From: Gilvimarinus agarilyticus
GTDB lineage: Bacteria; Pseudomonadota; Gammaproteobacteria; Pseudomonadales; Cellvibrionaceae
Assembly: GCF_000832015.1 (NCBI RefSeq)
Contig: NZ_JXCJ01000001.1
Coordinates: 1,091,002-1,132,563 of the forward strand
Length of the DNA stretch: 41,562 nt
Direction: 5' to 3'
Every line of letters begins with the position of its first letter. Position 1 is the first letter of the stretch. The translations under genes were made by a program, and so were the position numbers. Positions 12,898-26,150 of the stretch are shown here, one piece after another. The notes beneath the pieces were generated by a model. That model was not told the origin of the DNA. It ran no database searches and saw only the letters and a list, made by a program, of their open reading frames with translations.

Positions 12898-15288
12898 ATG
12901 AACATTGGTACGTTTCGTCCCCTTTGGGTAGCAGGACTCTTTATGACCGCGGTAGTCCCCGCGGTGGCGGCCGACTTACTGGTCGAGGTTCAGAATCAAA
13001 CCACGCTGCGCAGCTTAGCAAAAGCCCGGGTGGTGGTAACCGACCGGGCTGGACGCCAGCTTGAGGCTGAAAGTAGCCCTCAGGGCCGCGCTCGCTTTAG
13101 CGACTTGCCGCCGGGTTTATACGAGGTGCTGATTACCCAACCGAGTTACAACAGTGTGCGGCTGCCGAGTGTGCGTGTGGTGGAAGATAAAACCACACCG
13201 ATTAATGTCGCGTTGTTGGCGGCCCCCAGTGGTGTGGAGGAGGTGCTGATTTTAGGTAGCAGTAGCCAGGGGCAATGGCTGAGTTCGGCCGGGGCGACAG
13301 AGCTCGATCGCGAGGCGCTGCGCAGCTCGGCCGGTAGTGGCGGGGATGTGCTGCGCGCGCTGGATGGTTTGCCTGGGTTGTTCTCCGATGGTGAATACTC
13401 CAGCTTTACCGTGCGAGGTAACGGCCCGCGTGATAACCAAATATTGGTGGATGGCGTACCCTTTGATAGCGTGGTGCACTTTAGCGACAATTTTGGCGAG
13501 CTAGAGGACGTAGAGGGCGGCGGGCGCTACAGCGTGTTTGCGCCTAATACCATTGGCAAAGCGGACTTTCAGCCCGGAGGCTGGTCGGCTGCTTACGGTG
13601 GGCGAGCCGGCTCTTTGTTGCAGCTAGAGGTGGCCGAGGGTAACCCCGAGACACCCTCGTACAGTGCCCGGATCGATATAGCCGGGCTCGAGGTGGGCTA
13701 CGATGGGCCGACGGGGGTACTGGATAACACCAGCATGCTGTTTTCGGCGCGGCAACTTAATTTTGGCCGGCTGTTTGAAATGGTGGGGCTGGACGACGTG
13801 GGTGAGCCCGAGCTTACCGATATCATTTTAAAAACCACCACCGAGTTTGACAGCGGTGATACGTTTAATTTTCTGGCGATTTACGCCCCGGAAGAATACA
13901 CCCGCGACATTAACCATGTGCTGGCCTCGGACGAAGACGAGCCGGGTAATTTTGAAGATGTTGGGCTGGTTTCTCAATCGGCGGACAACACTTTAGTGTC
14001 ACTTAGCTGGACGCACTTATTGGGTGAGAGCGCCGACTTAACCAACCGTTTGTACTATCGCCATTACGGTGAAGACTCGCAAAGCGGTGAGGCCTATCCG
14101 GATTTAGTCTCACTGGATACGCCGGCGTCTGATGTGCCGCAGCGCTTTCCTATTATTACCTCAAAACGCGATGAATCTGAAATCGGATGGCGGCTGGACT
14201 TTGGCTATGACAATGTCCTGGGGCGCTTCAATGCCGGGCTGCGAGTATTGCAGCTGGACTTAGACCTTGGGTTGGCACTGGACGATGACTGGATTCGCTA
14301 CGAGTACGATCAATCTGATTATCGCCCTTCGCCCGAGCAAAAGTATATTGTGTTAACGCCCGAGTCTCTCGATTCCAGCTATTCCGATAAATCCGTGCAG
14401 TACGCAGGCTACCTTGAGCAAAACATGGCGATGGGGCCGGTGGATATGCGTGCCGGGCTACGTTTTGATGCTGACGAGCTGACCGGCCACGATGCCGTTT
14501 CGCCGCGCTTAGGTGCATCCTGGCCCTTGGGCGAGTCTGTTACCTTAACGGCGACAGCTGGCCGTTACTTACAGGCCCCGCGCATCGATGAGCTGGCGAT
14601 TGACTCGGCCAACACGGACCTCGATTTTGAAAAAATTGATCAGCTAACCGTGGGCATGAGCTACCGCTACAGCGATAACATCGAGATTTTTATTGAGCCT
14701 TACTATCAATCTATTAGTGATCGAATCGTTCAGCTCGATGGAGTCAATCAAACTTACGGCAATACTGGCGAGGGCACCTCGTTTGGGGTAGATACGGCGA
14801 TAACCCGCTACTTTGCTAATGGCTGGTCGGCCAGTGCCACGTATTCGTACAACGACGCCGTTTATAAAGACTCGGCACAAGGCGAAGAATACGATGCCGA
14901 TTACAATCGCCCTCACGCGTTTAGTTTGGGTGGCGTGTGGGAGATCAACCAACGCTGGAAAGTTTCCAGCCGGGTGAAATGGGCCTCGGGCCCGCCGTTT
15001 GGTGATTTTATTGTCAACGATAACGTATTGGGTGACGGTGAACCACTGCGCTACAGCAAAGAGACTATTAGCAATAATACCGAGCGCTACGGCAGCTACA
15101 GCTCGGTTAATGTTCGAATCGATTACCGCCGCGACTTAGGTCCGATGGATGTGATTGCTTTTGTCGACATCATCAATTTATTGGGGGCCGAAAACCCCAA
15201 CAACAGCGAGTTTAACGAGCGCACCGGCGAAGATGCCCCCGAGGAGGGCTCGATGTTGCCACTGCTAGGGTTGCGGTTTGAGTGGTAA
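12898..15288 (+). CDS. TonB-dependent receptor with carboxypeptidase-regulatory-like N-domain
   Basis: The 796-residue outer-membrane transporter has a signal peptide (cleavage near residues 24-25), a carboxypeptidase-regulatory-like domain (about 27-108), a TonB-box-like segment (VEEVLILGS, 113-121), a plug domain with LDGLPGLF, TVRGNGPRDNQILVDGVPF, and a 22-strand-type barrel ending in the aromatic LRFEW terminus. The ligand cannot be told from sequence; no FecA-type signalling domain is present. The gene is monocistronic. AAGGA at 12882-12886 precedes ATG with a rather long 11-base spacing. Divergence from a membrane LytTR regulator suggests dedicated control. Confidence 0.9.
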   Translation: MNIGTFRPLWVAGLFMTAVVPAVAADLLVEVQNQTTLRSLAKARVVVTDRAGRQLEAESSPQGRARFSDLPPGLYEVLITQPSYNSVRLPSVRVVEDKTTPINVALLAAPSGVEEVLILGSSSQGQWLSSAGATELDREALRSSAGSGGDVLRALDGLPGLFSDGEYSSFTVRGNGPRDNQILVDGVPFDSVVHFSDNFGELEDVEGGGRYSVFAPNTIGKADFQPGGWSAAYGGRAGSLLQLEVAEGNPETPSYSARIDIAGLEVGYDGPTGVLDNTSMLFSARQLNFGRLFEMVGLDDVGEPELTDIILKTTTEFDSGDTFNFLAIYAPEEYTRDINHVLASDEDEPGNFEDVGLVSQSADNTLVSLSWTHLLGESADLTNRLYYRHYGEDSQSGEAYPDLVSLDTPASDVPQRFPIITSKRDESEIGWRLDFGYDNVLGRFNAGLRVLQLDLDLGLALDDDWIRYEYDQSDYRPSPEQKYIVLTPESLDSSYSDKSVQYAGYLEQNMAMGPVDMRAGLRFDADELTGHDAVSPRLGASWPLGESVTLTATAGRYLQAPRIDELAIDSANTDLDFEKIDQLTVGMSYRYSDNIEIFIEPYYQSISDRIVQLDGVNQTYGNTGEGTSFGVDTAITRYFANGWSASATYSYNDAVYKDSAQGEEYDADYNRPHAFSLGGVWEINQRWKVSSRVKWASGPPFGDFIVNDNVLGDGEPLRYSKETISNNTERYGSYSSVNVRIDYRRDLGPMDVIAFVDIINLLGAENPNNSEFNERTGEDAPEEGSMLPLLGLRFEW

Positions 15289-15368: not shown

Positions 15369-18300
15369 TTATTCTGTTAACACCACTAATGTTTGCCCAG
15401 GTTTAACACCGCCACCGGGCTTTTTAAGCAACTGTTTGACTTGACCGGCGACAGGGGCGGTGATGTTGATCTCCATTTTCATGGATTCCAGTATCAGTAA
15501 CGTTTGCCCCGCCTCTACAGTATCGCCTACCTCGACGTTTAATTGCCAAACGCTACCCGATACTGAGCTGTCGACTGGTGTGTCGCCCTCACCGAGGTCG
15601 AGTTCGTCTTCGCTATCGGTCTGCTCCATAGGGGTGAAGTTAAATTGCCCATCGCGGTGCCAGCGGGCCAATTCGTCATCAAACGCTTGTTGCCGTGTAG
15701 CGTTAAAGCGCTCGATCTCGACGCTGTCGGCGGCGATATTTGCCTCGTAATCGGCCAGGCTAAACTCGGTGTGTTCGATGGTCAGCGGGTATTGCCCACG
15801 GGGAAAATCTTGGCGAATTTGTTTTAGCTCATCACTGCTTACAGGGTAAAACTTGACCTGATCAAAAAAGCGCAGCAGCCAGGGCTGTTCAAACTCTTTG
15901 GTGGTTCGGTAGCGGTTCCACATTTGCAATGTGCGGCCCACAAACTGATAACCGCCGGGGCCTTCCATACCGTATACGCACATATAGGCGCCGCCGATAC
16001 CCACAGAATTTTCGGCTGTCCAGGTGCGCGCCGGGTTGTATTTGGTGGTCACCAAACGGTGGCGTGGGTCCATGGGGGTGGCTACTGGTGCGCCAAGGTA
16101 AACATCGCCTAAGCCCATCACCAGATAGGATGCCTCAAAGACGATTTTTTTCACATCATCGATGCTATCCAGTCCATTAATACGACGGATAAATTCTAAA
16201 TTCGAGGGGCACCAGGGCGCGCCGGGGCGTACGCTTTGTTGGTATTTTTCGATTGCCAGTTGGCAGGCTTCGTCATCCCACGATAACGGAATATGCACGA
16301 TGCGCGAGGGAACACTTAGGTTGGCAATTTGCGTCGCCAAGTAGCGCTCGCCTTGTTGCAAATGCGCCAATAGAGATTCCAGCGATAAGGCTTGGCTGTC
16401 GTAATGAATTTGCAGCGAGCGAATACCCGGCGTGAGCTCACGCATGCCTTGCAAAGGATTTTCTTGCAGCCATTGCATTAAAGCGTGGGCACGAAAGCGC
16501 AGTTTAATGTCTAGCTGCAGCGGGCCGTACTCGACCAACAAGAAGTGATCACCGGCGGCGCGATAGCAAATGTCTTCGCCGACCTCGTCAGCGCTTAGCT
16601 CGCCAACAATGGGTGAGGGCAGGGCGTCGGTGCTCACCTTGTCCTCAAAGGCTAAAGGAAGAACCTCAAGCGAGTTAATGGTGTTTTGTTGCCAGCGCTC
16701 TATATCAACGGCCTGTGCCACGGTAACCGGTACAAATCGAATGGTGTCGCCGGCGCGTAATTGCCCCAGCTTCCAGTGGTCGGCGGTGATAACCGTGGCA
16801 GGGCAGACAAAGCCGCCGAGCGAGGGACCGTCGGGGCCTAGAATCACGGGCATGTCGCCGGTAAAGTCGACGGTACCAAAAGCGTAGGCGTTGTCGTGAA
16901 TGTTGGACGGGTGCATGCCTGCCTCACCGCCGGTGGTGCGGGCCCATTCGGGTTTGGGGCCATTCAGGCGCACACCGGTACGGCTGGAGTTATAGTGCAC
17001 TTCCCAATCGGTGGAAAAAAATGTTTCGATATCGCTGGGGGTAAAAAATTCAGGTGCGCCGTGGGGGCCGTAAATAACGCGCAACTCCCACTGGTTGCTA
17101 ATGCTGGGTTTAAGGGCATCGGGCAAGCTATTGGCTGCGCTATTGTTTGTTGGGTTGGCGCTAGCGTGGCATTTTAAAACATCGCCGGCTAATAACGCGC
17201 GACCGTTGTGGCCGCCAAATTGGCCGAGTGTAAACGTGGATTTTGAACCTAGGTAATCTGGGCAATCGATACCACCTGCAACCGCCAGATAGGCGCGTGC
17301 ACCTTGTTCGCTAACCCGGCCAAGGTGTAGCGTTTGTCCGGCCGATACCGTAAACGGCTGCCAGTTTGGTACGGCATTGCCATCGAGCTTGGCGTCGATC
17401 TCGGCACCGGTTAATACGCACCGGGTATCAAATCCGAATTGGAGTGTTGGCCCCTGTACGGTAATTTCAAGCGCGGCGGCATCGGCGGCATTATCGAGTA
17501 AGCGGTTGGCGATCCGGAAACTGTAGTTGTCGAACGGGCCCGAGGGCGGTACACCAATGTCCCAGTAGCCGCTGCGGCCGGGAAAGTCCTGGATTGTGGT
17601 TTGCGTGCCGCCACTTAAAATATCAATGCGTGCCTCAGAGAATGCACGTTCATTTAGGTAGCGTGTGGTAATTTCACCCTTAATAAAAATCGGTTCGCGC
17701 AACAGCTCCGTGACATAGTCTTTGTTAGTTTGAATACCGTACAGTGAGCTGCCTAACAGACTGGCTTCGAGCAAGTCTACGGCTTGATCCCGGTTGCTGG
17801 ATTTAGCGATAACTTTGGCCAGCATTGGGTCAAAGTAGGGTGAAATCTCTAAACCGGATTCGATCCAGTGGTCGATACGCAGTACGTCGTCTGCTTTGCG
17901 AAAGGTCTCAGGCCATTTAACCTCACTTAATAACCCCGCACAGGGCTGAAAGTTTTTTACCGGATCTTCGGCATACAGCCGTACTTGGATGGCGTGCCCT
18001 TGGGGGATAAGGGTGCTGTGCTCTTGAGCAAGGTCCGCTAGCTGGCCGGCGGCCAGACGAATCATCCAGCTGACCAAGTCAGCACCCCATACCTCTTCGG
18101 TGACGCCGTGCTCTACTTGAAGGCGCGTGTTTACCTCTAGAAAGTAAAACTTTTCATCCTGCGCATCGTAAATATACTCAACGGTTCCGGCACCACGGTA
18201 TTGTACGGCGGCTAATAGATGTGCGGCGGTTTGGTGCATTTGTTCACGCACAACTTGTGGCAGGTTGGGGGCGGGGCACTCTTCAATGACTTTTTGATTG

Positions 18301-18998
18301 CGTCGCTGGCTCGAGCAGTCGCGCTCACCCAGGGCTACGGCGTGGCCTTTACCGTCACCAAAAACCTGTACTTCAATATGACGTGCCTGACCGATAAATT
18401 TTTCTAGAAATACGCGGTCATCTGAGAAGTTATTAGCCCCGAGTTGGCGAACTGCGTCAAAGCTTTCGCGCAGCTCGGATTCACTGTTGCACAGCTTCAT
18501 GCCAATGCCGCCGCCGCCAGCGCTGCTTTTAAGCATAACCGGGTAGCCGATCCCGTCGGCCTGTGCGCAGGCCTCGTCCAAACTTAGTAGCAAGTCGGTG
18601 CCTGGTACCAGCGGCACCTGATTTTGTTCGGCAATTTCGCGGGCGCTGTGCTTTAAGCCGAATACTTCCATCTGCTCAGGGGTAGGGCCGATAAAGGCAA
18701 TCCCTGCCGCTTCGCACTTGGCGACAAAGCCTGGGTTCTCACTTAAAAAACCGTAGCCGGGGTGAATGGCTTGCGCCCCCGTTTTTACGGCGATGGCAAT
18801 AATTTGCTCTTGATCGAGATAGGTTTGGCTCGCGCTACCTTCACCTAAACTGTAGGATTCGTCCGCGTGGCTAACATGCAAGCTGCCGGCATCGGCCTCA
18901 GAGTAAACCGCAACGGATTGGATGTTCATTTGTTTTAAGGTGCGGATAATACGTACGGCAATGGCACCGCGATTGGCAATCAGTACTTTGCTAAACAT
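15369..18998 (-). CDS. Guanidine carboxylase (urea carboxylase family, biotin-dependent)
   Basis: The 1209-residue protein has a biotin carboxylase half (1-450: HPGYGFLSEN, ATP-grasp loop SSAGGGGIGMK at 158-168, EVNTRLQVEH at 288-297), KipA/KipI-like carboxyltransferase domains (about 457-1085), and a C-terminal biotinyl domain with biotin-accepting K1174 in ESMKMEI. The family carboxylates urea or guanidine using ATP and bicarbonate. The riboswitch and DUF1989 partners upstream argue for guanidine as the real substrate, giving carboxyguanidine. ATG at 18998 is preceded by GGGAG with six bases; the open frame continues 22 codons upstream without similarity. It is the last gene of the operon; allophanate hydrolase does not follow. 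Family certain, substrate inferred. Confidence 0.92.
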   Translation of the reverse strand: MFSKVLIANRGAIAVRIIRTLKQMNIQSVAVYSEADAGSLHVSHADESYSLGEGSASQTYLDQEQIIAIAVKTGAQAIHPGYGFLSENPGFVAKCEAAGIAFIGPTPEQMEVFGLKHSAREIAEQNQVPLVPGTDLLLSLDEACAQADGIGYPVMLKSSAGGGGIGMKLCNSESELRESFDAVRQLGANNFSDDRVFLEKFIGQARHIEVQVFGDGKGHAVALGERDCSSQRRNQKVIEECPAPNLPQVVREQMHQTAAHLLAAVQYRGAGTVEYIYDAQDEKFYFLEVNTRLQVEHGVTEEVWGADLVSWMIRLAAGQLADLAQEHSTLIPQGHAIQVRLYAEDPVKNFQPCAGLLSEVKWPETFRKADDVLRIDHWIESGLEISPYFDPMLAKVIAKSSNRDQAVDLLEASLLGSSLYGIQTNKDYVTELLREPIFIKGEITTRYLNERAFSEARIDILSGGTQTTIQDFPGRSGYWDIGVPPSGPFDNYSFRIANRLLDNAADAAALEITVQGPTLQFGFDTRCVLTGAEIDAKLDGNAVPNWQPFTVSAGQTLHLGRVSEQGARAYLAVAGGIDCPDYLGSKSTFTLGQFGGHNGRALLAGDVLKCHASANPTNNSAANSLPDALKPSISNQWELRVIYGPHGAPEFFTPSDIETFFSTDWEVHYNSSRTGVRLNGPKPEWARTTGGEAGMHPSNIHDNAYAFGTVDFTGDMPVILGPDGPSLGGFVCPATVITADHWKLGQLRAGDTIRFVPVTVAQAVDIERWQQNTINSLEVLPLAFEDKVSTDALPSPIVGELSADEVGEDICYRAAGDHFLLVEYGPLQLDIKLRFRAHALMQWLQENPLQGMRELTPGIRSLQIHYDSQALSLESLLAHLQQGERYLATQIANLSVPSRIVHIPLSWDDEACQLAIEKYQQSVRPGAPWCPSNLEFIRRINGLDSIDDVKKIVFEASYLVMGLGDVYLGAPVATPMDPRHRLVTTKYNPARTWTAENSVGIGGAYMCVYGMEGPGGYQFVGRTLQMWNRYRTTKEFEQPWLLRFFDQVKFYPVSSDELKQIRQDFPRGQYPLTIEHTEFSLADYEANIAADSVEIERFNATRQQAFDDELARWHRDGQFNFTPMEQTDSEDELDLGEGDTPVDSSVSGSVWQLNVEVGDTVEAGQTLLILESMKMEINITAPVAGQVKQLLKKPGGGVKPGQTLVVLTE

Positions 18999-19036
18999 GA
19001 GCTTCTCCCGCGGGTCGTCCCGGGCTGTGCGGTTGG

Positions 19037-19054
19037 GTAGAGGTCGTCCTCTAC
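19037..19054 (-). other. Intercistronic hairpin before the carboxylase gene
   Basis: GTAGAGG and CCTCTAC flank a 4-base loop in the 100-base gap between the 213-residue deiminase-type gene and the carboxylase gene. With no T-run it is unlikely to terminate; it may influence processing or the relative yield of the large last gene. Confidence 0.5.
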
Positions 19055-19098
19055 GGCACGTCAAATTAAAAATGTGTGTGACTAAGGTGCGGCAATCA

Positions 19099-19740
19099 CT
19101 AATCCCAGATAATCATTTCTACCGGTGTCGGGTTGTAGCCGTTACACGGGTTGTTAAGCTGCGGGCAGTTGGACATCAGTACCAATACATCCATTGTCGC
19201 TTGCATCTCGACGTACTTGCCGGCACCCGAGATGCCATCGGCAAAGGTTAAACCGCCGTCGGCGGTGACGGGCACATTCATAAAAAAGTTAATGTTATGG
19301 GTAATATCCCGTTTGCTTAAGCCGAATTCCGGGTGCTCGGCAATGGCCAACATCCAGCTATCGCGGCAAGCGTGCATGCAGCGCTTTTCTAAGTCGTAGC
19401 GTACGGTATTGCTCTCGGTGGCACAGGCTCCGCCCAGTGTGTCGTGTCGGCCACAGGTGTCGGCGGTAATTTCCAGCATCGGGTTGCCGAGGTTAGAGCG
19501 CAGTACGCTGCCGGCGCTTAGGTACACTTGAGCTTGCTCGCGAATGGTGTCCATGGCGCTGTAACGCTCCGATGGGTCGGCGGCGTTAAAAAACAATGTG
19601 TCGGCGGCTTGGTTGCCTTCGATGTCTAAGATGCGTAATGTTTGGCCGCGCTTTAGCGGGGCTAAGTAGTAATCACCGGCGCCAATTACGTGCCGAGCGC
19701 TGGCGTTACTGACGTCTAGTTTACTGGCTACAATAGTCAT
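19099..19740 (-). CDS. DUF1989 protein, carboxyguanidine deiminase subunit type (CgdA/CgdB)
   Basis: The 213-residue protein belongs to the urea carboxylase-associated (DUF1989) family: [45 protein letters not shown] with potential metal-binding His and Cys, [10 protein letters not shown] and a closing [20 protein letters not shown] segment. Two such proteins together convert carboxyguanidine to allophanate and ammonia in the guanidine pathway known from Pseudomonas. It begins 11 bases after its paralogue and has an AGGAG-type site. Which of the two corresponds to CgdA or CgdB I cannot decide by eye. Confidence 0.85.
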
Positions 19741-19751
19741 GGTCTCTCCTG

Positions 19752-20474
19752 TTAGACGCCGATGTGGTAGAGCGCGTTATTGGCAAATCCGCGCGTGTTT
19801 TCGGGGCGAGCGTTTAGGCATAAATCGTCATCGCTTATGGCCTCGGCCTCACCCAGTTCAATTTGGATGGGCGCTCGTGGGTATTCGTCTGAGCTGTCTA
19901 GTGGGTGAGGGCAGCTGTGCATCAATACCAGCGTGTCCATCTCAAAGCGCAGTGTGGTGCTAGCGTTTTCACTTTTAGCGCCCTGATCAAGAGCGAGTGC
20001 ACCGTTATCGTCGGTGTAAGCCTTGCTAAAAAAGTTAATGTTAGCGGCCATGTCGGCGCGGCCCAGCCCGTATTTGGCAAGCTCCACTAAAAATGCGTCA
20101 AAGCCATTTTGCTTCCAGTCGTTGCGCTCGGCTTGATAGTCCCGTGCTCCCCAGCGCTGGGCAATATGTTGCGCATTACTATTGCCGCACACGGTGTCGT
20201 GCCAGCCAAAAGTGTCCTCGGTAATTGAGGCGAAAATACGCCCCATATCAGAGTACAAACAGTGGCCCGCCGTTAGCTTAAAGGTGTGCTGGCACTTTAG
20301 GGTGTCGGGTGCGTTGTAGCGCTCGAGTAAGTTGCGCGGGTTGTAAAATAGCATAGCTACATTGCCGTTTCCGGTGAGATCGGTTAAGCGCAGCGCACTG
20401 CCGCGGCGCACTTCGAGTGACCAGTGGCTGGCGCCCGGTAATGTGGTGGTGTAGTCAATAGTTTTTAAGGTCAT
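19752..20474 (-). CDS. DUF1989 protein, second carboxyguanidine deiminase subunit type (CgdA/CgdB)
   Basis: The 240-residue paralogue of the next gene shares the family pattern: [65 protein letters not shown], plus a longer tail with [11 protein letters not shown] and [14 protein letters not shown]. In older annotation it is a urea carboxylase-associated protein. It overlaps the ABC ATPase gene by four bases (ATGA), showing tight coupling of uptake and catabolism. The two DUF1989 proteins probably form a heteromer. Confidence 0.85.
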
Positions 20475-21289
20475 GGTGTTTCTCCGCTTGCGCTGGCTAC
20501 CTCGTTGGTGTCGGCCGGGTTAAGGGATTGTTGTATTTGGTTGAAGGTGTCGTGGGGCATATCGCCTACGGGTAAGTCGTAGGTTATCCGTGCGCCATAG
20601 GCGTTGGGCGCTTGCGGGTCGTGGCGTACTTTGTCGAATACCCACAGGCGCGTACCCAGATAAAAGCCTTCGGTTAAGTCGTGAGTGACCATAAAAATGG
20701 TGAGCTGATGCTCGCGCCACAAATCCAGAATAAGCGCGTGCATGTCGGCGCGAATGCCTGGGTCAAGGGCGCCAAACGGTTCATCCAGTAGCAGGATGCG
20801 CGGCTTACGAATTAATGCTTGAGCAATGGCCAGACGCTGACGCATACCGCCCGACAGCTCGTGTGGATATTTATTGGCGGCCGGGCTAAGGCCCACCCGC
20901 TCTAGCAGTTGACGGGCCTCTTCAAGCACGGCTTTTTTACGACCGCCAAATAGCTTGCCGAGCAATGGGGATTTTTCAAACTCCCTGGCGATAATAACGT
21001 TTTGCAGTACCGTTAGGTGCGGAAACACTGAGTATTGCTGAAACACAATGCCGCGAGCTTGATCCGGCTCGGTGGCGATGGGTTGGTCGTCCAGCAATAG
21101 GTCTCCCCGGGTTTGTGTCTCCATGCCCAACAACATTTTTAAGAAGGTACTTTTGCCGCAGCCAGAGGTGCCAACAAGCGTGACAAACTCTCCAGCCTCG
21201 ACATTTTTGTTGAGGTTCTCGAGTACGATATTGTCGCCGTAACTCTTCCAGAGGTTTTTAATTTGCAACATGGGGGGCGTGGTGCTCAT
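20471..21289 (-). CDS. Guanidine-type ABC transporter ATP-binding protein
   Basis: The 272-residue ATPase of the nitrate/sulfonate/taurine class energises import. It has Walker A GTSGCGKST (40-48), Q-loop FQQYSVFPHLT, signature LSGGMRQRLAIAQAL, Walker B ILLLDEPFGALD and H-loop MVTHDL. It overlaps the permease gene and the following DUF1989 gene by four bases each. Substrate is inferred from operon and riboswitch, not from the ATPase itself; similar genes are usually annotated as urea or nitrate transporters. Confidence 0.92.
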   Translation of the reverse strand: MSTTPPMLQIKNLWKSYGDNIVLENLNKNVEAGEFVTLVGTSGCGKSTFLKMLLGMETQTRGDLLLDDQPIATEPDQARGIVFQQYSVFPHLTVLQNVIIAREFEKSPLLGKLFGGRKKAVLEEARQLLERVGLSPAANKYPHELSGGMRQRLAIAQALIRKPRILLLDEPFGALDPGIRADMHALILDLWREHQLTIFMVTHDLTEGFYLGTRLWVFDKVRHDPQAPNAYGARITYDLPVGDMPHDTFNQIQQSLNPADTNEVASASGETP

Positions 21290-22107
21290 GTGTTGCCTCC
21301 TGCGTGATGCCAGCGAAACAGTAGTCGGCTGCTGTTGGCCAACAGCCAGTCCACCATAAACGCCAGGAAGGTTATCCAGGCTACGTAAGGCAGAATCACG
21401 TCCATCGATAAATAACGGCGCACTAAGAAGATGCGATAACCCAGGCCGTCGGTGGAGGCGATACCCTCAGCGGCAATTAAAAACAGCCAGCCGGCGCCCA
21501 ACGATAAGCGGATGGCGTTAATAAGTCGGGGCAGTAATTGCGGTATTAAAACGCGCACAAGAATGTGCCAGGTGCTGGCGCCTAGCGTTTGCGCTTTAAT
21601 CAACTGCTCTTTCGGAATCTCTTGGGTGCAACGCTGAATATCCCGTGCAATAAAGGGGGCAACACCAAAAATGATTAAGGCCACTTTAGACAGCTCACCC
21701 AACCCAAATACAATAAAGAGTATGGGGAGCAGCGCCATGGGCGGCACTAGGGAAATAACCGTTAGTAGCGGGGCAAATGGCGCGTTTAGGGTAGGAAGTG
21801 CGCCTGTAAGCAAGCCGACAACAAAGCCGATAACAGCCGCGATGCCCACGCCGAGTGCCAGGCGCTGCAAGCTAGAGGCGGTGTCTTGCCAAAACAGGTA
21901 CTCGCCAGTACGTTTGCTGGGCTCGAAGGCCAACCGATGCATTGCATCCCCCATTTGCGCAAAACTGGGTAACAGCTTGTCATTGGGGTTGACCTCTAGG
22001 CGTGCGTCGGACGCAATCACATAGATCAATAAAATCAAGGCAAAAGGCGCAAGGCCGAGCAGCACTTTTAATGGCCGCGATGGTGTCAGATTTACCAGAC
22101 GTTTCAT
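21286..22107 (-). CDS. Guanidine-type ABC transporter permease
   Basis: The 273-residue inner-membrane protein has an N-terminal helix (about 13-33), a large periplasmic loop, and a BPD_transp core of about five further helices. The EAA-like loop that docks the ATPase is EQLIKAQTLGASTWHILVRV. It belongs to the SsuC/TauC class, consistent with the ATPase and the NMT1-like binding protein. It starts 47 bases after the binding protein stop codon, a gap filled by a strong hairpin. Confidence 0.9.
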   Translation of the reverse strand: MKRLVNLTPSRPLKVLLGLAPFALILLIYVIASDARLEVNPNDKLLPSFAQMGDAMHRLAFEPSKRTGEYLFWQDTASSLQRLALGVGIAAVIGFVVGLLTGALPTLNAPFAPLLTVISLVPPMALLPILFIVFGLGELSKVALIIFGVAPFIARDIQRCTQEIPKEQLIKAQTLGASTWHILVRVLIPQLLPRLINAIRLSLGAGWLFLIAAEGIASTDGLGYRIFLVRRYLSMDVILPYVAWITFLAFMVDWLLANSSRLLFRWHHAGGNT

Positions 22108-22121
22108 AAAGGTGTCCCGCT

Positions 22122-22139
22122 CGGGGGCAGGCGCCCCCG
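22122..22139 (-). other. GC-rich hairpin between binding protein and permease genes
   Basis: CGGGGGC and GCCCCCG flank a 4-base loop. No T-run follows on the minus strand. A stable hairpin at this place commonly protects the binding-protein mRNA and limits read-through, so that the binding protein is made in excess over the membrane subunits. Confidence 0.65.
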
Positions 22140-22154
22140 TGGTGTCGGTGATTA

Positions 22155-23195
22155 TTAAAGTTTGCCGTCGGCGGCCATTTGCATGTAGGTAGTATCAAAC
22201 CGCAGCTGAATGTTGCCAGAGTTGCCGTACACATCATTGGGGCCGGCGATGCCGATAAAGCCTGCGTCGGGGGCGCCTTCACCCAGCAAACCGTGGTCGA
22301 ACGAGAACTCAGCGACTTTGGCCATGGTGCTCAGGAGCTCGTCGCTGTTAACCAGTGCCAAGGCATCACTTGGTTGATAAAACATTTTGGTGCTGGCTAA
22401 TTGTGATTCGTAACCGGCCAGATCGGTACCAGAGGCTTTGCCCATAGCGGTACGTGCAGCGACCCCTGTGGCGTTGTCGGCACTCATGGTTTGCATAATT
22501 TCATACCAGGCGCCTACCAGTGCTTTACCCAGCTTTGGGTTGGCGGCCAGTGTGTCGGTGTTGACGACTAACAGGTCCATGATTTCGCCCGGGATTTGCG
22601 ATGAGTCAAACACCTTATTAGCGTTGGGTTGCTGCAAGATTTCGTTTAAGAGTGGGTTCCAGGTCGTAACCGCATCAATAGAGCCGGAACTGTACAGGGC
22701 GACTAAGTCGGCGTCGGAGGTGTTGACTACCTGTACGTCAGCCTCGGATAAGCCGACGGTATCCAGCGCCCGGGCCAGAAGATAGTGTGATACAGATAGC
22801 TCGACCAGGTTAACCCGCTGGCCTTTAATGTCGCTGAGTGAGTCTTTGCCTTTGAGTACGACACCGTCATTGCCGTTGGAGAAGTCCCCGACAATTAACG
22901 CCGTGCTATCGATGCCGCCGGCCGCGGGTATCGTCAAGGCGTCCATGTTGGTCATGGTGCAGGCGTCAAACTCGCCGGCGGTGTATTGATTAATCGACTC
23001 GATATAGTCGTTGATTTGCACAACCTCGATGTCGATGTCGTACTTGTCTGCCCACTTATCGACGATTTTTTGCTCGGCGCCGTAGCCCCAGGGCATCCAG
23101 CCAACGTAAATGGACCAGCATACTTTAAAGGAATCGGCGGCCTGAGCTTGTGCCGAGAGTAGTAATGCCAGGGCGGCAATAGAAAGGGACTTCAT
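22155..23195 (-). CDS. Guanidine-type ABC transporter periplasmic binding protein
   Basis: The 346-residue NMT1/SsuA-like binding protein has a signal peptide ending in AQAQA-A (about residue 19). The mature part begins with KVCWSIYVGWMPWGYG and has ACTMTNMDAL, VVELS-like and WNPLL segments of the group usually called putative urea ABC transporter binding protein. As first gene behind a guanidine-I riboswitch and next to the carboxylase pathway, its ligand is most likely guanidine or a guanidinium compound. A GGAGG site four bases before ATG lies within the palindrome ACCTCCGGAGGT (23200-23211), relevant to control. Confidence 0.88.
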   Translation of the reverse strand: MKSLSIAALALLLSAQAQAADSFKVCWSIYVGWMPWGYGAEQKIVDKWADKYDIDIEVVQINDYIESINQYTAGEFDACTMTNMDALTIPAAGGIDSTALIVGDFSNGNDGVVLKGKDSLSDIKGQRVNLVELSVSHYLLARALDTVGLSEADVQVVNTSDADLVALYSSGSIDAVTTWNPLLNEILQQPNANKVFDSSQIPGEIMDLLVVNTDTLAANPKLGKALVGAWYEIMQTMSADNATGVAARTAMGKASGTDLAGYESQLASTKMFYQPSDALALVNSDELLSTMAKVAEFSFDHGLLGEGAPDAGFIGIAGPNDVYGNSGNIQLRFDTTYMQMAADGKL

Positions 23196-23253
23196 ACAAA
23201 CCTCCGGAGGTCGTTTTGGTTACACATAACTCGCTTGGCGATCAGGCCAATAA

Positions 23254-23361
23254 GTCTCCCGGGCTTTTGTCCCGCCGTGTAACCTCGACAGAGTCGGAGG
23301 TCGAAAGCTCTCGGACCAGTCGCTATGCCTTTATTAACACAGCCGGAACCCTAGCTTTCTA
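23254..23361 (-). promoter_or_regulatory. Guanidine-I (ykkC) riboswitch
   Basis: On the minus strand the aptamer reads CTAGGGTTCCGG (23351-23340 region), GGCATAGCGACTGGTCCGAG, then a variable hairpin (ACCTC-C-GAC / GTC-GAGGT), ACACGGCGGGACAAAAGCCC and CCCGGGAGA. These are the highly conserved blocks of the guanidine-I class, in order and with normal spacing. The 3' end lies 58 bases before the binding-protein start codon. No T-rich terminator follows, so control is probably translational. The class senses free guanidinium and switches genes on. Confidence 0.96.
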
Positions 23362-23425
23362 TTTTCCTAATTGTCTATGTCCTGATCACCGTTGGTTGTG
23401 TGGACATGTCGTACGAGTGATAAAG

Positions 23426-23441
23426 AGCAATATGGGTACCA
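23426..23441 (-). promoter_or_regulatory. Sigma-54 (-24/-12) promoter of the guanidine operon
   Basis: Minus strand TGGTACCCATATTGCT matches the sigma-54 consensus TGGCAC-N5-TTGC(A/T) at all but one position, with the required 10 bases between GG (23440-23439) and GC (23428-23427). Predicted start is near 23415, about 55 bases before the riboswitch. This implies activation by an enhancer-binding protein such as NtrC. Confidence 0.75.
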
Positions 23442-23759: not shown

Positions 23760-26150
23760 ATGGATACTATGTCTATGTCTAGGGATAAAAGTGGTGGCGG
23801 AATAAATATGAATAGCCCCGACACCTCCTACGAAGTACTCTCTGAAGCTCAAATCGAGCGATGCCTTAAACTCTGCACAAACGCAGCGCAGGATTATTTA
23901 ACACAGACTTTTCCAGCTTTTTGGGGCGAGTGGGTCACGTCGGTCGAAAAGCGTGAAGAACATGCGCGCTCGAATAAAGAGCAGGTGGCCCTGGCCGAAA
24001 TAGGCAAACAATTACAGGCATCGGGCAATGCTTGTCTCAATCAGTATCAGAAGTACCTGAAGCAGAGCTTTTCCGATTTTTCGGCGCAGCAGCTGCATGT
24101 TGCCAGTGGGCAGGAGCGTTTTAGCCAAAATATTGGCTTATCCCTGGTGGACAATGCTGAGCTCGAAGAAACCATAGCGATTACCTCTATATCTCACCGT
24201 GCTGACGCTCAGTTTGCCGAGTCGCTTTGGACATTACACCAGCGCTTAGCTTTACTTAATGGCGGGCGTAAAATCGATGAGCGCAGTAACCCGGTTAGCC
24301 CCATTCAATTTTGCGACAGCCTGCGCCGGGTGCTTGTCGAGCTAAACTTTGATGCCCGAACCAAAGTGCTTGGTTATAAGCAGTTTGAGCAGGCGGTTAT
24401 CAAGCCGATTGGCGGGCTCTACCAATCGCTCAATGAGCTGTTGGTGGCCGAGGGTATATTGCCGAATATCCGCTACAGCGCCAGTGGCAATGAAAGCGAA
24501 ACCGCCCCGGAACAGAGCGCGCCTGCGGCGCCAGACGCTGAAGAATCCGCGGCCGGTGAGCCGCAGCCTGAGCGGCGCGGTCGCCGGGCAACCGATCAAC
24601 TGATGGCGCCGGGTGCCAGTGATGACCCTCAGCAGTACCAGCAAGGGTTAGTCAGTGCGATTCGTTTATTGCAAACTCACTTGGGCGGTGGGGTGTCTTC
24701 GCCTGGGGCGGCTGCATCGGCAGCGCCGCAGAGTGGCGCCGCAGGTGGTTTTGCGCCTTCACATGGTACACCGAGCATTGCTGGTGCGGCGCCAAACGCC
24801 GGAGTTGGAGGGGCTTCAGCGCCGGTCGTGGGAGCTATTCAGGTACTGCAAGCGCAAATGGCTCAGTCTACCCAGAGTTTGCAACAGGCCGAGGCGGGCG
24901 ACATACAGCCATTGGCGGTTGCGGCCGTATCTGAGCAACTGACGGCGGAGCTTAAAAAGCAAGGCGCCGATAGTGTATTAAACGATGATATGAACACTAT
25001 CGAGCTGGTGGGGTTGGTGTTTGCTTACATTCTGAATGATGAGCAGTTACCGGACTCTGTTAAAGCTTTACTGAGTTATTTACACACACCGGTGTTGAAA
25101 TTAGCGTTTATCGATAAAGATTTTTTCGATAACGTTGATCATCCTGCGCGCCTGCTGTTAAACCAAATGGCCGAGGCGGGCAGTCGCTGGGTAAGTAATG
25201 ACGGTACCAGTCAGTACAATATTTTTGAAAAAATAAAAACCACTGTATTTCATGTGCTGGAGTACTTTGTTAACGATGTAAAAGTTTTTGCTGAAGCGCG
25301 GTTGGAGTTTAGCTCCTACGCGCGCAATGTGTCGCGCCGCCAAGAGTTAATGGAGAAACGCGCACTAGAAAAAGCCCGCGGCGAAGAGAAACTGCGTGAG
25401 GCAAAAATTCGCGTCAATAGCGATATATCTGCTTGTATCGATGGCAAAGCTTTACCATCGCCCATACTGTTACTTTTGCTTTTGCCCTGGTCAGATTATT
25501 TGTCCTTTATTATTTTGCGCTATGGCGCCGACTCGGACAGTTATCAGCAAGCGTTAGGCGTTGCCGGTCAGTTGTTGTGGAGTATTGAGCCTAAATCTCT
25601 GGAGGCAGATCGTTTAAAACAGATCGAGGTGCAGGGTGATTTACTGCATACCTTGCAGTCTGGGTTTGAAACGATTGGTTACGAGCAAAATAAATCGCGT
25701 AAGCTCATTGATGCAGTCAGCTCTTTACAGCGTCTGGCGCTTAAAAGTCGGCAAGTGGAACCTGCGCCCGAGACGATGCGCAATAAACTTGAGAAAATGG
25801 CAGCCGAGAAGGCCGGGCAAGTAAAGCAAGACGATCGCCCTGTGACGCCAGAAGAGGCCCAGTTGATCGAGAAGTTAAAGCTGATCGAGTTTGGTACCTG
25901 GCTGGAAAACGACAAAGGGCAGCGTATTAAAGTGGCGTGGTACAACCACAAAACGATGCACTATATGTTGGTAGATCAGCAGGGACGCAAGGTCTCTATG
26001 ACTTCGGCGAAGCACTTGGCGCGCGAGATGATCGCAGGTAAGCTGCGTGTGATTGCCGGTAGTGCCAAGCCGTTTTTCGAGCGCGCCCTGGAAAATATTT
26101 ATCACAGCCTCAATGCCCGTGCGTCGGGTGAGCTGTTGCAAAGCGAGTAA
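23760..26150 (+). CDS. DUF1631 family protein
   Basis: The 796-residue cytosolic protein matches DUF1631: an alpha-helical N-terminal part (about 25-245), a low-complexity Ala/Gly/Pro/Ser linker (about 245-370) containing ERRGRRATDQ, and a helical C-terminal half with VELVGLVFAYILNDEQLP, PARLLLNQMAEAG and SPILLLLLLPWSDYL. The last 110 residues (GTWLE.., RIKVAWYNHKTMHYMLVDQQG) have a beta-rich PilZ-like look. The function of DUF1631 is unsettled; the adjacent PilZ gene three bases downstream suggests cyclic di-GMP-linked regulation. Several in-frame ATGs occur within the first 17 codons, so the start is approximate. Confidence 0.82.
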   Translation: MDTMSMSRDKSGGGINMNSPDTSYEVLSEAQIERCLKLCTNAAQDYLTQTFPAFWGEWVTSVEKREEHARSNKEQVALAEIGKQLQASGNACLNQYQKYLKQSFSDFSAQQLHVASGQERFSQNIGLSLVDNAELEETIAITSISHRADAQFAESLWTLHQRLALLNGGRKIDERSNPVSPIQFCDSLRRVLVELNFDARTKVLGYKQFEQAVIKPIGGLYQSLNELLVAEGILPNIRYSASGNESETAPEQSAPAAPDAEESAAGEPQPERRGRRATDQLMAPGASDDPQQYQQGLVSAIRLLQTHLGGGVSSPGAAASAAPQSGAAGGFAPSHGTPSIAGAAPNAGVGGASAPVVGAIQVLQAQMAQSTQSLQQAEAGDIQPLAVAAVSEQLTAELKKQGADSVLNDDMNTIELVGLVFAYILNDEQLPDSVKALLSYLHTPVLKLAFIDKDFFDNVDHPARLLLNQMAEAGSRWVSNDGTSQYNIFEKIKTTVFHVLEYFVNDVKVFAEARLEFSSYARNVSRRQELMEKRALEKARGEEKLREAKIRVNSDISACIDGKALPSPILLLLLLPWSDYLSFIILRYGADSDSYQQALGVAGQLLWSIEPKSLEADRLKQIEVQGDLLHTLQSGFETIGYEQNKSRKLIDAVSSLQRLALKSRQVEPAPETMRNKLEKMAAEKAGQVKQDDRPVTPEEAQLIEKLKLIEFGTWLENDKGQRIKVAWYNHKTMHYMLVDQQGRKVSMTSAKHLAREMIAGKLRVIAGSAKPFFERALENIYHSLNARASGELLQSE

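Follow-up and report, generated by a model that had tools for sequence, protein, structure and literature searches.

Guanidine operons with two riboswitches have been described for three enterobacteria, Raoultella, Erwinia and Klebsiella. There, a guanidine-I riboswitch accompanies the importer and deiminase genes, and a guanidine-II riboswitch the carboxylase and the allophanate hydrolase (PMC12186494). The gca/mgdH operon of Vreelandella boliviensis begins with guanidine-I, has guanidine-II between cgdB and gca, encodes an ABC transporter, CgdA/B and Gca, and additionally holds atzF, mgdH and mgdL; binding by both switches was measured, and the operon proteins are strongly induced on guanidine (PMC12508155). 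In Alcanivorax, guanidine-I precedes a gene that is annotated as encoding the binding protein of a urea transporter (PMC9788540). Here, we analyze a 41,562-nucleotide stretch of contig NZ_JXCJ01000001.1 of Gilvimarinus agarilyticus (the window), the minus strand of which carries, from 23365 to 15369, a guanidine-I aptamer, genes for a binding protein, permease, ATPase, UAAP1 and UAAP2, a guanidine-II aptamer, and a carboxylase gene. The operon is of a known type, because the layout with two riboswitches has already been published for Raoultella, Erwinia, Klebsiella and Vreelandella, and it extends that type to Gilvimarinus and its relatives. Unlike in the enterobacterial operons, the allophanate hydrolase AtzF is encoded about 2.1 Mb away. 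We conclude, with a probability of roughly 80%, that the operon serves guanidine assimilation, is regulated at two points and relies for its last step on an unlinked AtzF of urea lineage. The operon is composed of the following features:

23254–23365, minus strand: guanidine-I riboswitch aptamer (Rfam cmscan, RF00442, 93.8 bits, E 6.6e-16, full model 1–107)
23196–23253, minus strand: guanidine-I switch linker of 58 nt, predicted translational expression platform (folds, leader survey, chimera control)
22155–23195, minus strand: periplasmic binding protein of the putative importer for guanidine (TIGR03427, 555 bits, cut-off 333.9)
21286–22107, minus strand: ABC permease (PF00528)
20471–21289, minus strand: ABC ATPase (PF00005)
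19752–20474, minus strand: UAAP1, one presumed carboxyguanidine deiminase (Cgd) subunit (TIGR03425, 316 bits, DUF1989)
19099–19740, minus strand: UAAP2, the other presumed Cgd subunit (TIGR03424, 327 bits, DUF1989)
19011–19055, minus strand: guanidine-II riboswitch directly before the carboxylase start (RF01068, 38.1 bits)
15369–18998, minus strand: guanidine carboxylase, annotated as urea carboxylase, 1209 residues, with Asp711, Asp965 and presumed biotinyl Lys1174 (TIGR02712, 1834 bits, and residues)

An earlier note on the window had read a guanidine-I riboswitch in the leader and, behind it, a binding protein, permease, ATPase, two DUF1989 proteins and a carboxylase, which it took to import, carboxylate and deiminate guanidine. 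The covariance-model scan finds the riboswitch at 23365–23254, above the Rfam gathering score (93.8 vs 63 bits), as the sole match in the genome. Family matches place all six genes where the note had described them, and together with the riboswitch, Asp711 and Asp965 they support the predicted pathway. The genes are separated by 47, −4, −4, 11 and 100 nt, and the guanidine-II element is located inside the 100-nt gap. TIGR03424 and TIGR03425 both exceed their cut-offs in the adjacent UAAP2 and UAAP1 genes, as matches at the level of family, not of clade. A search of solved structures with UAAP1 returned none at E 1e-5, and the binding protein has weak matches only to taurine, sulphonate and nitrate binders. 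The NCBIfam models give "urea" names to four operon proteins; the note had expected such misannotation, a point already made in two papers (PMC12186494, PMC7266159).

Guanidine carboxylases are told apart from urea carboxylases by an Asp at position 1330 of the Kluyveromyces lactis enzyme KlUA, with a conserved Asp at position 1584 also required (PMC11410670). In an alignment with the K. lactis enzyme, counted by hand, these positions correspond to residues 711 and 965 of the window protein, both of which are Asp. Membership of the TIGR02712 family, Asp711 and Asp965 together give the protein the signature of a guanidine carboxylase (Gca). Lys1174 sits in an ESMKM motif and is presumably the biotin site. 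The genome holds one full-length carboxylase of the family. Its start is ATG 18998 and not TTG 19064 of the mechanically called open reading frame (ORF), because position 1 of the TIGR02712 profile falls at residue 24.

The published Asp/Asn rule agrees with gene context across one order, from which we took an even sample of 145 genomes out of a larger group, using stricter RNA filters at which weak matches are lost. Among 55 carboxylase rows, the 711 column contains 45 Asp and 10 Asn, and the 965 column has Asp in 53 and a gap in two. At least one guanidine riboswitch is present in 42 of the 45 Asp-type loci vs none of the ten Asn-type loci. Both riboswitch classes occur in 26 Asp-type loci, guanidine-I only in 13, guanidine-II only in three, and neither in three. 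A contig end cuts into the operon in L057, L065 and L073, which start inside it, and the counts for G059 and G088 include a second contig. According to the maps, guanidine-II directly precedes the carboxylase in 20 of the 26 loci with two switches, and is positioned before UAAP1 or behind the ATPase in six. The Asn-type loci adjoin atzF in all ten cases and have urtABC within the stretch in nine. The atzF–urea carboxylase–urtABC operon of a relative, Marinimicrobium alkaliphilum (L019), shares the carboxylase family with the window operon; however, residue 711 is Asn there, and the stretch has neither a guanidine riboswitch nor a UAAP match. In a family-level set, some loci of which repeat one gene, the 711 residue could be read in 44 of 49 loci (L175–L223) and is Asp in 34 and Asn in 10. 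The nearest named relatives belong to Gilvimarinus; both switches are also present in four named loci of this genus, whose carboxylases are 77–79% identical.

The NCBIfam names of the four proteins, and the position of AtzF next to a urea transporter, would fit a true urea carboxylase operon that imports urea and makes allophanate from it. We consider this highly improbable, since Asp replaces Asn at residue 711, two guanidine riboswitches are present, the two deiminase-type genes have no evident role on urea, the genome encodes a urease and a separate urtABC, and the Asn-type loci of the order lack guanidine riboswitches altogether.

The guanidine-II switch between UAAP2 and the carboxylase is absent from the earlier note. 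Its score exceeds the gathering threshold (38.1 vs 32 bits) and is identical in the whole-genome search, and the element has two hairpins with the loop sequence ACGA in both. A second guanidine-II element (C1:898425–898483, minus strand; L015:5426–5484) scores 32.0 bits, exactly the gathering score, and directly precedes a sugE-type SMR exporter gene. It was recovered in the whole-genome search and in the L015 scan, and is absent from the larger scan. Because this match precedes an exporter gene, guanidine is probably also dealt with as a stressor, and the same match would favor detoxification rather than nitrogen assimilation as the function of the operon. We regard detoxification as unlikely, as the operon opens with a binding-protein-dependent transporter, which is an importer type, and V. 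boliviensis, whose operon has this layout, can grow on guanidine (PMC12508155). The real substrate might also be methylguanidine or another substituted guanidine, from which guanidine itself would arise as an intermediate, given that the guanidine-II riboswitch of V. boliviensis is described as not distinguishing the two compounds (PMC12508155). This is quite unlikely here, since the operon ends at the carboxylase and contains no extra enzyme genes, a statement that for mgdH and mgdL covers the operon alone.

The final enzyme of the proposed guanidine assimilation is encoded elsewhere. The earlier note had called the operon complete, which does not hold: no allophanate hydrolase gene is found within it, a departure from the operon definition of the guanidine carboxylase pathway. 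AtzF exceeds its cut-off once in the genome (C1:3218104–3219765, 799.6 bits), and another amidase match, at 196.9 bits, does not reach it. The AtzF gene is located directly before urtA, urtB and urtC, with a spacing of about 100 nt to urtA, and a cmscan search of 15 kb around it (L014) detected no Rfam family at gathering score. A urease is also encoded in the genome (990 bits) and can handle urea itself. AtzF is present in 47 of the 145 order genomes, once each at E 1e-100. We read its placement by hand in the 45 genomes with an Asp-type carboxylase: it follows that carboxylase downstream within one contig in 33 (about 8 kb away in G073), shares a different operon with an Asn-type carboxylase in eight, and is beside urtABC with no Asn-type carboxylase left in four (G000, G019, G104, G132). 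This makes 12 of 45 genomes, that of the window among them, in which AtzF is separate from the Asp-type carboxylase. The remaining two AtzF genomes (G005, G038) have only an Asn-type carboxylase. In the family sample of 61 genomes, AtzF is present in 36 and the carboxylase in 37.

The AtzF of the window genome appears, by tree and synteny, to be the hydrolase of an atzF–urea carboxylase–urtABC operon that lost its carboxylase. The tree of 47 AtzF rows, which are related to one another, unites the ten urea-operon AtzFs, the four orphans and G074 in one group (support 100/100), in which the window genome's AtzF is sister to that of M. alkaliphilum (G057; 99/98). G074 is the reverse case, a guanidine-operon AtzF within the urea-operon group. 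In a quick tree of 66 rows, to which part of the family was added, seven of eight orphan rows fall in the urea-operon group, and the window genome's AtzF has no clear nearest partner. The eighth, G171, is of guanidine type and is probably the product of a contig break, because it is on a 4.9-kb contig. Of three sampled congeners, two (G147, G176) carry AtzF and urtABC but lack the carboxylase there, and the third (G193) has AtzF inside the guanidine operon. In Gilvimarinus chinensis, AtzF is likewise encoded apart from the operon. A GntR/FCD regulator, identified by Pfam, separates AtzF from urtA in G147, and a similar ORF, judged by eye, is positioned between the carboxylase and urtA in G057. 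In G019, a urea carboxylase cut to codons 1–47 and 1176–1208 in one frame (L070:9726–9974) is a deletion scar beside AtzF; no carboxylase remnant was found between AtzF and urtA of the window genome. Separately, the AtzF of G193 (L207) clusters with the AtzF of G063, a genome of a different family, an indication that the G193 operon was gained by transfer.

We infer that the window genome has retained AtzF for guanidine breakdown. Three points count against this view: G188 (87% complete), the odd one of the family sample, has an Asp-type carboxylase and no AtzF match; the urea-type AtzF of G168 has no urt match within its 18.5 kb; and AtzF could be kept for another allophanate source.

The guanidine-I leader is predicted to form a translational expression platform that acts on the Shine-Dalgarno (SD) sequence of the binding-protein gene. 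A review describes guanidine-I as usually transcriptional (PMC12186494), and the authors of the V. boliviensis study presume that its guanidine-I acts on an intrinsic terminator (PMC12508155). In contrast, the terminator scan of the window recognized no terminator-like site on the minus strand between 23365 and 23195, as an intrinsic-terminator switch would have. In the computed ligand-free fold, all five bases of the SD sequence GGAGG (23205–23201) pair with aptamer bases 23296–23300 with probabilities of 0.93–0.94, and GUGUAACC (23225–23218) pairs with aptamer bases 23277–23284 with a probability of 1.00. Across the order, 42 leaders were surveyed out of 47 guanidine-I matches; 35 lack an 8-base stretch holding at least six T, and the linker is 53–70 nt long in 34. 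For 38 leaders with linkers of up to 100 nt, we built chimeras with aptamers from other genomes. The mean SD–aptamer pairing is 0.70 in native leaders vs 0.38 in chimeras, and is higher in the native leader in 30 of 38 (Wilcoxon p 2e-6, a value that is too small because the leader rows are related). Native leaders outpair chimeras; therefore, each genome's aptamer is matched to its own SD region. A GUGUAAC-like element, with one mismatch allowed, occurs in 17 of the 38 linkers vs 2.8 expected from shuffles.

Several results speak against translational control. Forcing the guanidine-I aptamer frees no more than the first two SD bases (to about 0.9) and leaves the last three in a local hairpin (0.24, 0.05 and 0.02). 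A T-rich stretch is present in 7 of 42 order leaders, 8 of 38 leaders do not exceed their own chimeras in SD–aptamer pairing, and total SD pairing differs less, with 0.80 in native leaders vs 0.72 in chimeras (28 of 38; p 0.002). Guanidine-I may also have a transcriptional effect through Rho. The published mechanism of guanidine-II is SD unmasking, and the window element folded with its two hairpins forced gives no release of the SD sequence.

We hypothesize that binding of guanidine to the guanidine-I aptamer would pull the aptamer strand off the SD sequence of the binding-protein gene and turn the importer on. Imported guanidine would be carboxylated by the biotin enzyme with Asp711, the guanidine-II element before its gene serving as a second guanidine check on that enzyme. 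The UAAP1/UAAP2 pair would deiminate the carboxylated product to allophanate, which AtzF, encoded beside urtABC, would hydrolyze. This last step would be outside the guanidine riboswitches because AtzF is of the urea-amidolyase lineage and outlasted the urea carboxylase.

For the order as a whole, we lean slightly towards a broader proposal: guanidine-I would be mainly translational, its aptamer strand pairing with the SD sequence of the first importer or deiminase gene, and the guanidine pathway would repeatedly have taken over the AtzF of a dying urea-amidolyase operon, outside riboswitch control. If so, the usual terminator-based picture of guanidine-I needs qualifying, and the hydrolase hand-over shows, more than once, a pathway that depends on the final enzyme of another that has disappeared. 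In a search confined to the open-access literature, we found no prior report of a retained urea-type AtzF or of a translational guanidine-I platform in the texts consulted.

Variants of the operon occur among the sampled genomes. A second operon type (L037, L040, L052, L060, L075) has a binding protein 31–34% alike, no permease match, and guanidine-II before UAAP1 instead of before the carboxylase. In L030 and L035, guanidine-I occurs twice, once before UAAP1–UAAP2–carboxylase and once, about 10 kb away, before permease–ATPase. No UAAP1 or UAAP2 match was found near the Asp-type carboxylase in L038 (G011) and L194 (G179); in L038, the carboxylase directly follows the ATPase.

The promoter scan of the window is uninformative, with five sites vs 6.8 expected by shuffling. 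The terminator scan gave 15 sites vs 10.0 expected (sd 3.7), and its eight minus-strand sites are all within genes, seven in the permease gene and one in the carboxylase gene. The next gene after the carboxylase, at 12898–15288, is convergent and encodes a TonB receptor, which we considered as an outer-membrane guanidine importer and rejected. It is not a conserved neighbor, because tblastn found no match in 11 related loci, which reach 2.5–7 kb past the carboxylase. On the other side, the neighbor is a DUF1631 gene in divergent orientation (23760–26150), which is also divergent to the operon in four Gilvimarinus loci (L076–L079), with 60–64% identity.

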